Source: Longitalea arenae
Lineage (GTDB): Bacteria > Bacteroidota > Bacteroidia > Chitinophagales > Chitinophagaceae
Direction: 5' to 3'
Assembly: GCF_016924755.1 (NCBI RefSeq)
Contig: NZ_JAFFJX010000001.1
Span: 186,001 to 250,000, forward strand
Length of the DNA stretch: 64,000 nucleotides
Shown piece by piece: positions 3,510-28,230 of the stretch. Below the pieces are notes generated by a model, which saw only the letters and a list, made by a program, of their open reading frames with translations, made no database searches and had not been told where the DNA came from. Position 1 is the first letter of the stretch; every line of letters starts with the position of its first letter. A program made the translations under genes and the position numbers.

Positions 3510-3694
3510 ATCATACATTTTCAATCTGAAATATACAATGAGTTTTTCATTAATATATTTATCGTGTAGGTAAAGTATGTCACTTATTTCCGGCAAAGCT
3601 CATAAAGTATACACGTTACAGCATCTTTAACTGTAACGGTTGCCGATCTTACTTTACCGTTAGCGGTGGTATGGCCATTCTGCAGTGTGCTTCA

Positions 3695-5017
3695 TTAATA
3701 ATTCATGGCCTGGTAAACAAGCACTTTATACAGGTTGCCAAGATTGCCCCAACTCGTAGGCCAGATGTTGCGGTAAAGTAATCCGATCAGTTTTTCTTTG
3801 GGATCTACCCAATAGGTAGTGGAAAACATACCACCCCATTCGAAAGTGCCTTCCTGTGTGGGCAATACAGCGCTGCCTTTTTCAGTCGTTATACCGAAGC
3901 CCAGTCCGAACTTGTTGGGACCGCGGCTGATATCGCCGATCTGATTCATCGTCATCATGCGAACACTGTTATGGCTGAGCAAGCGTTTGCCATTGTATTC
4001 ACCGCCGTTCAATAGCATTTGCAGAAAAATGGCATAATCATAAATGGTAGAGGACAGGCCGGCGCCGCCTGAATAGTATGTGCCTTTCATATTGGGGTAA
4101 TCGCGGAACATTTCATTTACCACGTTCACTCTTTCATTCATTTTTACCAGCTTTTTGGTGGCGCTGTCTTCGGTATACAGCATGACCAGCCGTTTTTGTT
4201 TGTCGGCCGGCAAATAAAAGTAAGTGTCCTTCATGCCTAAAGGCTCAAAAATGCGTTTGTGAAAAAAATCCTTCAGGCTCATGCCCGATACCACTTCTAC
4301 CAGGTAACCCAATACATCAGTATTCAAACCATAGGTGAACTTTTCTCCGGGCTGATGAAAAAGCGGAAGCGTGCCGAGGATCTTCATTTTCTCGGCGAGG
4401 ATATAGTTAGGAACTCCAATTCCGCCAACTACGCCAGCCTTGGCATAAATAGCTTTCGCTTCTGCAGAACCGATCTGTGCATACCCTAGTCCACTGGTAT
4501 GTGTAAGCAGATCGCGAATGGTGATCTCGCGTTTGGCGGGAACGGTCGTATAGGTAGTGTCTGCTTTATTATATTTATCGATCACCCTGGGGTTTTTAAA
4601 CTCGGGGATGAAGTTTGAAATAGGATCGTCCAGCATGAATTTTCCTTCTTCATATAACATCATCACGGCTACGCTGGTAATAGCTTTAGTTTGAGAGGCA
4701 ATGCGGAAGATGCCATCTTTGGGTAGCGGCGCTTTGGTATCAATGTCGTTGTAGCCAAAATTTTTATAATATACGATCTTGCCTTCATGCACGATCATCG
4801 CCACGGCTCCGTTAATTCTTCCCTTGTCAACATACTCCTGTAATGCAGTATCAATGCGCGCCAACCGCTTCGATGAAAATCCACTGGCTTCAGGGCTCGT
4901 TGCCATACTCAAAACAGGATGGCCAGAGTGGTTAACGGAATTGGAATGATTCGACTGGCAAAAACCAATGGTAATACCAAGCAGGATAACTGAAATTGTG
5001 CTGGCGAGCTTTCTCAT
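3695..5017 (-). CDS. Serine hydrolase, beta-lactamase/esterase family (PF00144-like), secreted
   Basis: 440 aa with signal peptide (MRKLASTISVILLGITIGFC). The class C beta-lactamase/D-Ala-D-Ala peptidase fold is shown by SQTK at 108-111 (nucleophile Ser108, general base Lys111), the tyrosine of FTYGLN (about Tyr229, the YxN position) and the C-terminal FEWGGMFSTTYWVDP, which occupies the KTG/HxG strand. It belongs to the broad EstB/PBP4-like group, so it may be an esterase, a peptidase or a peptidoglycan-trimming enzyme. No neighbour narrows the choice. Start at the signal peptide methionine. Confidence 0.88.
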   Translation of the reverse strand: MRKLASTISVILLGITIGFCQSNHSNSVNHSGHPVLSMATSPEASGFSSKRLARIDTALQEYVDKGRINGAVAMIVHEGKIVYYKNFGYNDIDTKAPLPKDGIFRIASQTKAITSVAVMMLYEEGKFMLDDPISNFIPEFKNPRVIDKYNKADTTYTTVPAKREITIRDLLTHTSGLGYAQIGSAEAKAIYAKAGVVGGIGVPNYILAEKMKILGTLPLFHQPGEKFTYGLNTDVLGYLVEVVSGMSLKDFFHKRIFEPLGMKDTYFYLPADKQKRLVMLYTEDSATKKLVKMNERVNVVNEMFRDYPNMKGTYYSGGAGLSSTIYDYAIFLQMLLNGGEYNGKRLLSHNSVRMMTMNQIGDISRGPNKFGLGFGITTEKGSAVLPTQEGTFEWGGMFSTTYWVDPKEKLIGLLYRNIWPTSWGNLGNLYKVLVYQAMNY

Positions 5018-27240: not shown

Positions 27241-27275
27241 TTAAAACAACAAAGCTTTCCCGGTTCACCGGAAAG
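27241..27275 (-). terminator. Terminator downstream of the tRNA-like pair
   Basis: On the minus strand CTTTCCGG-TGAA-CCGGGAAAG (8 bp with one bulged G) is followed by CTTTGTTGTTTTAA. It lies 12 bases past the end of the second tRNA-like RNA and suggests that both RNAs are transcribed from right to left. Confidence 0.65.
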
Positions 27276-27286
27276 GCCCTGATTCG

Positions 27287-27454
27287 CTGTAGAGGGAGGA
27301 TTCGAACCTCCACGGGGCAGTTAGCCATGGCGCAATTCTGTGGTGGTCAACCCCAGTCGGCCTAATTGCTTAAGCCGGCATTACACCACGTTTATCCCGA
27401 ACTCCCCACCCCCGAGACAAGAGGGCATGTCTGCCAAAGTTCCATCACTCCACA
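27287..27454 (-). tRNA. tRNA-like RNA A, GUC anticodon loop, giant variable region (168 nt)
   Basis: A cloverleaf can be drawn in full. Acceptor TGTGGAG/CTCTACA pairs (7 bp, one G-U), position 8-9 is TG, the D arm is ATG/CAT around GAACTTTGGCAGA with G18-G19 present, the anticodon arm is CCCTC-TTGTCTC-GGGGG, and the T arm is GGAGG-TTCGAAT-CCTCC with a canonical T loop. The discriminator is G and CCA is not encoded. Instead of a normal variable loop there are about 97 nt enclosed by TGGGG/CCCCG, containing a GTGGTG/CACCAC helix. The D arm and closing stem resemble class II (Leu/Ser) tRNAs, yet the anticodon would be GUC (Asp) with an unusual pyrimidine at 37. It may be a specialised non-ribosomal tRNA-like RNA or a tRNA with an insertion. 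Confidence 0.6.
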
Positions 27455-27477
27455 AGATAAAAACGTGTAAAAAGCTG

Positions 27478-27609
27478 CTGTAGGAGGAGGATTCGAACCT
27501 CCACGGGGTAGTTAGCCACGCTAAGAGCGTAATTTGTCCTTCCTGGCGAACCAGTATTCCCCACCCTCGAGACAAGAGGGCATGTCTGCCAAAGTTCCAT
27601 CACCCCACA
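27478..27609 (-). tRNA. tRNA-like RNA B, GUC anticodon loop, large variable region (132 nt)
   Basis: Paralogue of RNA A, 23 bp upstream of it on the minus strand. Acceptor TGTGGGG/TCCTACA, D arm ATG/CAT, anticodon arm CCCTC-TTGTCTC-GAGGG, T arm GGAGG-TTCGAAT-CCTCC, discriminator G, no encoded CCA. Acceptor pair 6-67 is G-C here and A-U in copy A, a compensatory change that supports the fold. The variable region is about 61 nt, closed by TGGGG/CCCCG, with hairpins CTGG-TTCG-CCAG and ACGCT-CTT-AGCGT. The segment TGGCTAACT before the closing stem is identical in both copies although the inserts differ. The two are obviously duplicated and under structural constraint. Confidence 0.6.
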
Positions 27610-27759: not shown

Positions 27760-28230
27760 ATGGCAGCTAAATTGAATTTAGATAAACTGGACCTGCAGAT
27801 AATCCACGAAATGATGGACAATGCAGAAATTTCCTATGCAGATCTGGGTAAGAAGCTTTTCGTTTCCGGAGGTACCATCCATGTACGTATAAAAAAATTG
27901 CAGGAAGCGGGTATTGTCAAAGGTACAAAATTAAATGTGGACCTAAAAGCGCTCGGATACGACGTCATTGCGTTTATTGGCATATATCTTGAGAAAAGCT
28001 CCCTGTATGATTCCGTAGCCAAAGAACTGCAGCGCATCCCCGAAATTGTACGGTTAAATTATACAACAGGTAATTACAGCATGTTTGCTGAAATAGTATG
28101 TAAAGATATTAATCAATTACGGTTTGTGTTACACGATGAATTACAGAAGATAAAAGGAATTGAACGAACCGAAACGTTCATTTCCCTTGAAGAAAGCTTC
28201 AGCCGTAATGTGCAGGTTTTTACGCAGTAG
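27760..28230 (+). CDS. Lrp/AsnC family transcriptional regulator
   Basis: 156 aa. N-terminal winged helix-turn-helix (LDLQIIHEMMDNAEISYADLG ... VSGGTIHVRIKKLQEAG, about 8-55), then the RAM ligand-binding fold (about 65-145). Such proteins sense amino acids and form octamers that wrap DNA. Upstream, TTG at 27692-27694 and AATATTTG at 27714-27721 make a promoter with one mismatch and a 19-bp spacer. No divergent or downstream amino acid gene shows its target. Confidence 0.92.
   Translation: MAAKLNLDKLDLQIIHEMMDNAEISYADLGKKLFVSGGTIHVRIKKLQEAGIVKGTKLNVDLKALGYDVIAFIGIYLEKSSLYDSVAKELQRIPEIVRLNYTTGNYSMFAEIVCKDINQLRFVLHDELQKIKGIERTETFISLEESFSRNVQVFTQ

Follow-up and report, generated by a model that had tools for sequence, protein, structure and literature searches.

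Tandem tRNA-like RNAs with large variable domains in Longitalea arenae: a candidate carrier family for tRNA-dependent asparagine formation

Two tRNA-like RNAs beside an AsnC-type regulator gene

The window, by which we mean the whole 64,000-nt stretch that was analysed (Longitalea arenae, GCF_016924755.1, contig NZ_JAFFJX010000001.1, positions 186,001-250,000, forward strand), contains two tRNA-like RNAs in tandem, separated by a spacer of 23 nt, together with a regulator gene of the Lrp/AsnC family and a terminator-like hairpin (Table 1). Both copies have a 7-bp acceptor stem, a 3-bp D stem of the tRNA-Leu type, a 5-bp anticodon stem with a 7-nt loop and a canonical T arm, and the anticodon arm of both reads CCCTC-TTGTCTC-G(A/G)GGG. 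A first-pass annotation had described these elements as two minus-strand RNAs with a full cloverleaf, in which acceptor pair 6-67 changes from G-C to A-U between the copies; the sequence and alignment to a covariance model confirmed the coordinates, the strand and the pair change. The class II-like D arm that it had noted corresponds to the tRNA-Leu-type D stem, and the variable regions have the lengths it gave, 61 and 97 nt, closed by GGGG/CCCC. In copy 1, the variable domain holds a hairpin inside a conserved internal loop, GGACAAAU / GGCUAAC, while in copy 2 the internal loop is GAUAAA / CUAA and a long arm carries GGGGUUGACCAC.

Table 1. Positions of the RNAs, their parts and neighbouring features in the window
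Feature	Positions	Strand	Details
RNA copy 1, short type	27478..27609	-	132 nt from U1 to G73; covariance model 110.5 bits
Ends of copy 1			acceptor UGUGGGG/UCCUACA; discriminator G73; CCA not encoded
Anticodon loop, copy 1	27569..27575	-	UUGUCUC, positions 32-38; from sequence and conservation
Variable domain, copy 1	27503..27563	-	61 nt; closing stem GGGG/CCCC
RNA copy 2, long type	27287..27454	-	168 nt from U1 to G73; covariance model 129.8 bits
Ends of copy 2			acceptor UGUGGAG/CUCUACA; discriminator G73; CCA not encoded
Anticodon loop, copy 2	27414..27420	-	UUGUCUC, positions 32-38; from sequence and conservation
Variable domain, copy 2	27312..27408	-	97 nt; closing stem GGGG/CCCC, 3-bp stem
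AsnC-type (Lrp/AsnC family) regulator gene	27760..28230	+	divergent, ~150 bp from copy 1
Terminator-like hairpin with T-rich tail	27257..27274	-	downstream of copy 2; consensus match only

ARAGORN called 0 tRNA and 0 tmRNA genes within the window, and a search of the window against Rfam 15 returned nothing at the gathering threshold and no tRNA match up to E=10. Because ARAGORN and Rfam do not call the family, most annotations probably lack it, also those of phage genomes in which it stands beside full tRNA sets. A relative of tmRNA with a tag was ruled out, since an anticodon arm is present, a coding part is absent and ARAGORN called no tmRNA.

The best NCBIfam match of the regulator is AsnC (NF008384) with 164 bits, which lies below the 227-bit cut-off, compared with 55 bits for Lrp, and its nearest solved structure is E. 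coli AsnC (PDB 2cg4, E=2e-33). The protein has the Lrp/AsnC fold and is closest to AsnC. In E. coli, AsnC controls asnA according to asparagine.

A covarying family in bacteria and phages

Relatives of the RNAs were found by BLAST in 25 of 41 near genomes, and the exact anticodon-arm pattern matches at least 120 genome stretches, almost all of them from Bacteroidota (e.g. Chitinophaga, Niabella, Algoriphagus, Cyclobacterium, Marivirga, Fulvivirga, and Saprospiraceae), with one Ignavibacteriales genome, as well as 23 viral contigs. After parsing, 187 unique members were obtained, with variable regions of 39-131 nt and a range that spans Chitinophagales, Cytophagales, Saprospirales, Ignavibacteriales, and phage tRNA arrays. 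When the covariance model (R1) was run across 392 genomes of the phylum, members scored above ~90 bits and ordinary tRNA-Leu 55-61 bits. A literature search of mainly open-access journals, bioRxiv excluded, returned no description of this RNA family. The family to which the two RNAs of the window belong appears to be undescribed.

Among 60 diverse members, 93.2% of cells were paired as the cloverleaf predicts, compared with 81.2% after shuffling and 48-58% when the sequences were slid, and two-sided changes occurred at 20 of 33 pairs. In the 93 members aligned to the covariance model, pairing reached 95.4% of cells and two-sided changes 25 of the 33 pairs; covarying homologues, whose absence had been named beforehand as grounds for giving up the first-pass reading, were therefore found. 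As judged from these alignments, the cloverleaf exceeds chance expectation. Single-sequence minimum-energy folding of the RNAs did not recover the full cloverleaf, so the structural evidence is comparative rather than thermodynamic; minimum-energy folding of short members likewise gave no signal.

Across the family, the variable domain consists of the closing stem, a 3-bp stem, the internal loop GAUAAA/CUAA and, above it, an arm that varies freely. The internal loop may resemble the UAA/GAN-type loop that many bacterial 16S rRNAs have in helix 8. The first-pass annotation had allowed for tRNAs with an insertion, a description that was not supported, as nearly all members keep the variable region, which is structured and covaries. 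A removable insertion was ruled out on the same grounds, with the domain missing only from a 76-nt derivative (L252, G110:C23:55338-55413) that has the loop CUAUCUC. The genome of this derivative has asnA, and its AsnC orthologue lies on a separate contig.

In phages, the RNA lies inside tRNA arrays, the largest of which hold 14 tRNAs or more, and in one case a tmRNA is present too; it is also found in the 636-kb uncultured phage LR756504.1. A further set of RNAs in phages has constant tRNA ends, UAGUCAGG plus a Leu-type D arm at one side and a T arm plus CCUGACUA at the other, around a hypervariable middle. This set comprises 151 distinct elements, 73-193 nt long, from 138 viral loci (e.g. 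L298, L299, L296 at 3600-4100, L300 at 2380-2500, and L318 onward). ARAGORN calls few of the elements as tRNA, and they may represent tRNA-capped small RNAs. On the host chromosome, a compact array of at least nine tRNAs (L058, G000:C11:482825-483523), some of them odd, such as a tRNA-Asp starting with U, probably derives from a mobile element or phage.

Conserved bases and co-occurrence with GatCAB

Loop positions were counted in the 82 distinct members from the BLAST and covariance-model searches, in which the loop was not fixed. G34 is present in 78/82 members, U35, C36, and C38 in all 82, and U37 in 80/82. U33, on the other hand, is present in just 63/82 (77%) and is replaced by C, G or A in the other 23%, whereas it is found in all 144 ordinary tRNAs counted (40/40 in the host and 104/104 in phage arrays). 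The first-pass annotation had considered U37 very unusual, and a purine does occupy this position in 40/40 host tRNAs. Set against a canonical tRNA, the family thus has the covarying cloverleaf and lacks both a conserved U33 and recognition by tRNA models.

These counts bear on one alternative, a specialised tRNA that decodes Asp codons with an oversized variable arm and is kept for certain conditions. Although the GUC anticodon and a position among ordinary tRNAs in phages would suit such a role, we consider it very improbable, given the replacement of a U33 that the ordinary tRNAs in these genomes always keep, the U37, and the presence of ordinary tRNA-Asp(GUC) genes in the host genome and in several phages; moreover, U1-A72 combined with GatCAB would put asparagine at Asp codons.

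A review lists G73, G34, U35, C36, and C38 as the strong Asp determinants and attributes the amidation of Asp-tRNA to U1-A72 and its prevention to G1-C72 and U20a (PMC9976931); a requirement of GatCAB for U1-A72 has also been described (PMC4206432). All five of these AspRS determinants are present in the RNA family. None of the 93 aligned members departs from G73, U1-A72 or G2-C71, phage members with rewritten acceptor stems included, and position 20a is A in 92/93, such that the GatCAB determinants (U1-A72 without U20a) are present as well. The host tRNA-Asp has G1-C72, and the host tRNA-Asn has U1-A72. A further bacterial AspRS determinant, G10, is not shared, as position 10 is mostly A (A 66, U 17, G 10 in 93 members). 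Since the Asp determinants other than G10 are combined with U1-A72 and A20a, the RNA looks, from its conserved bases, as though it were made for charging by AspRS followed by acceptance by GatCAB, unlike ordinary tRNA-Asp.

Exceptions at position 34 comprise C34 in L292 and L293, U34 in L231, and A34 in L252. The U34 and C34 members have the Glu-type anticodons UUC and CUC, and some of them would suit GluRS over AspRS; the genomes of L292 and L293 have no GlnRS over the cut-off, which may point to a switch towards glutamate/glutamine.

Other identities were also considered. A leucyl identity was rejected because, despite a Leu-like body, G73 argues against LeuRS. A seryl identity is possible on sequence grounds, as SerRS shares G73, G2-C71, R4-Y69, and a large variable region with the RNA, though it leaves the conservation of GUC and C38 and the link to GatCAB unexplained. 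The tightly conserved fold and the carriage by phages are also what would be expected of a structural or decoy RNA that binds AspRS, GatCAB or a nuclease while remaining uncharged; we regard this as very improbable, as a decoy of one protein needs less than conserved U1-A72, G2-C71, G73, and C74 together with the AspRS determinants.

The gene gatB was examined in 53 genomes after the Asp and U1-A72 features had been seen, and was present in 20/20 RNA-positive genomes. AsnRS is present in nearly all 53. Among the 31 class members that possess AsnRS as well as GlnRS, gatB is present in 14/14 genomes with the RNA and in 0/17 without it (Fisher 3.8e-9, a value that is descriptive only, as the genomes are related and independence is overstated). 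In genomes with both synthetases, GatCAB has no obvious or known decoding role. GlnRS is absent from each of the five class members that have gatB but not the RNA, so that gatB fits the ordinary glutamine route there. The RNA and gatB also switch together inside families: in f1, RNA-positive genera have gatB and G056, G153, G010, and G021 have neither, and in f19 the switch separates G118, G137, G252, and G415 from G042, G160, and G383. Two genomes of another class, G070 and G100, are misfits with gatB, AsnRS, and GlnRS but no RNA. A non-discriminating AspRS could instead explain the retention of GatCAB, because the host tRNA-Asn also has U1-A72.

Other routes to asparagine coexist with the RNA to varying degrees. 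The host has two AsnB-like genes, one of them outside an exopolysaccharide cluster, so the RNA would not be the sole asparagine route there but an additional or conditional one. Three RNA-positive genomes have asnA, and the RNA-positive G415, G228, and G287 have neither asnA nor asnB over family cut-offs. AsnB of E. coli-like length (~555-578 aa) was seen solely in RNA-negative genomes of the tested set.

A proposed asparagine carrier and its relation to known systems

The first-pass annotation had suggested that these are not routine decoding tRNAs and that they may be specialised RNAs, for instance for aminoacyl-tRNA-dependent synthesis. This suggestion is supported by the comparative data: U33 varies while positions 34, 35, 36, and 38 are conserved, the host has ordinary tRNA-Asp(GUC), and the occurrence of the family follows that of GatCAB and of an AsnC-type regulator. 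We consider it somewhat probable that the RNAs belong to a tRNA-derived, non-decoding family whose members serve as carriers in tRNA-dependent asparagine formation, controlled by AsnC. The stricter proposal, in which a former tRNA no longer decodes and is solely an AspRS/GatCAB asparagine platform under its own asparagine-type regulator, we hold to be evenly balanced between right and wrong.

From sequence comparison we infer charging, amidation, exclusion from ribosomes, release of asparagine, and regulation as the steps of such a pathway. The RNA would be matured by RNase P, RNase Z, and CCA addition, and AspRS would load aspartate through G34-U35-C36, C38, and G73. The large variable domain might clash with this enzyme, since AspRS approaches tRNA from the variable-loop side. 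GatCAB would then recognise U1-A72 and convert Asp-RNA to Asn-RNA. Decoding would be barred by the free U33, U37, and the structured variable domain, because asparagine on a GUC anticodon would misread Asp codons, a risk that would explain the relaxed U33 and perhaps the variable domain. The asparagine would be released or handed on, with bulk supply needing an enzyme, and the divergent AsnC-type regulator would tune RNA supply to asparagine status.

Of 133 bacterial loci, 86 have a gene of the Lrp/AsnC family, in every case upstream and divergent, at a median distance of 128 bp, and this linkage extends from Chitinophagaceae to Ignavibacteriales. An AsnC orthologue is present in 20/20 RNA-positive genomes examined; among RNA-negative genomes, four of the five with an AsnC orthologue have asnA, compared with 3/28 of those without one. 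A link to trmB was rejected as too little conserved, trmB lying downstream at 26 loci only. In Cyclobacteriaceae (e.g. L079, L081, L083, L091, and L099), a conserved GGTTATTTTGGGTTTATTGTTAATTGACTAAAGC directly 3' of the RNA is perhaps a leader or a further RNA.

The divergent AsnC-type gene would also suit a sensor or regulatory RNA, charged and amidated in the same way, that reports Asp/Asn/Gln status to AsnC or to target RNAs instead of producing asparagine in bulk. An amino-acid regulator beside a divergent small RNA has a precedent in E. coli gcvA/gcvB, the conserved internal loop of the variable domain suggests a binding site, and the flux through a slow-releasing RNA is estimated to be low. 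We nevertheless consider this reading unlikely, as the phage arrays carry the RNA without any accompanying AsnC gene and tandem copies in many genomes suit carrier dosage better. Carriage by phages without AsnC is in keeping with a role in supply while the host is infected, and speaks against an RNA that acts in host regulation alone. A seed-pairing small RNA acting through UCUC is another possible explanation.

The non-decoding loop together with charging determinants would also be expected of an aminoacyl donor that transfers Asp or Asn from the RNA to a protein, lipid or cell-wall acceptor independently of the ribosome, for which the non-proteogenic tRNA-Gly that serves staphylococcal cell-wall synthesis is a precedent. 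This appears distinctly unlikely, since the AsnC-type gene is the sole conserved neighbour, with no conserved transferase gene beside the RNA, and phage carriage would be less expected.

For the preferred reading, an asparagine carrier, the significance is twofold. A 2014 survey counted 67-68 bacterial genera with AsnRS, GlnRS, and GatCAB and lists genera, Bacteroidetes included, with GatCAB despite AsnRS (PMC4206432); the reason for this retention is open in most genera, and the RNA would offer a specific, directly testable answer for many Bacteroidota. If this reading is correct, the RNA would also be one of the rare tRNA folds retained for a metabolic role and not for reading codons.

One of the closest known systems is tRNA-dependent asparagine synthesis, in which AspRS and GatCAB act on tRNA-Asn and with which the RNA shares Asp determinants, U1-A72, and co-occurrence with gatB in genomes with AsnRS, while differing in its GUC loop, class II body, 39-131-nt variable region, unconserved U33, and own AsnC-linked locus. 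With tRNA-Leu it shares the D arm, the bases of the tertiary core and, at the variable arm, the stem-GU-T-stem junction, but it has G73 instead of A73, an Asp-type anticodon loop, and a structured domain where tRNA-Leu has a short variable hairpin. Similarly, G34 U35 C36, C38, G73, and G2-C71 are held in common with tRNA-Asp(GUC), from which the RNA departs in U1-A72 instead of G1-C72, U37, the class II body, and the unconserved U33. The staphylococcal non-proteogenic tRNA-Gly is likewise a tRNA fold withdrawn from decoding, though with a different amino acid, different partner enzymes, and no comparably large extra domain. Finally, pairs of the gcvA/gcvB type resemble this locus in their divergent genes and amino-acid-type regulator, whereas the RNA described here is a cloverleaf with conserved charging determinants.
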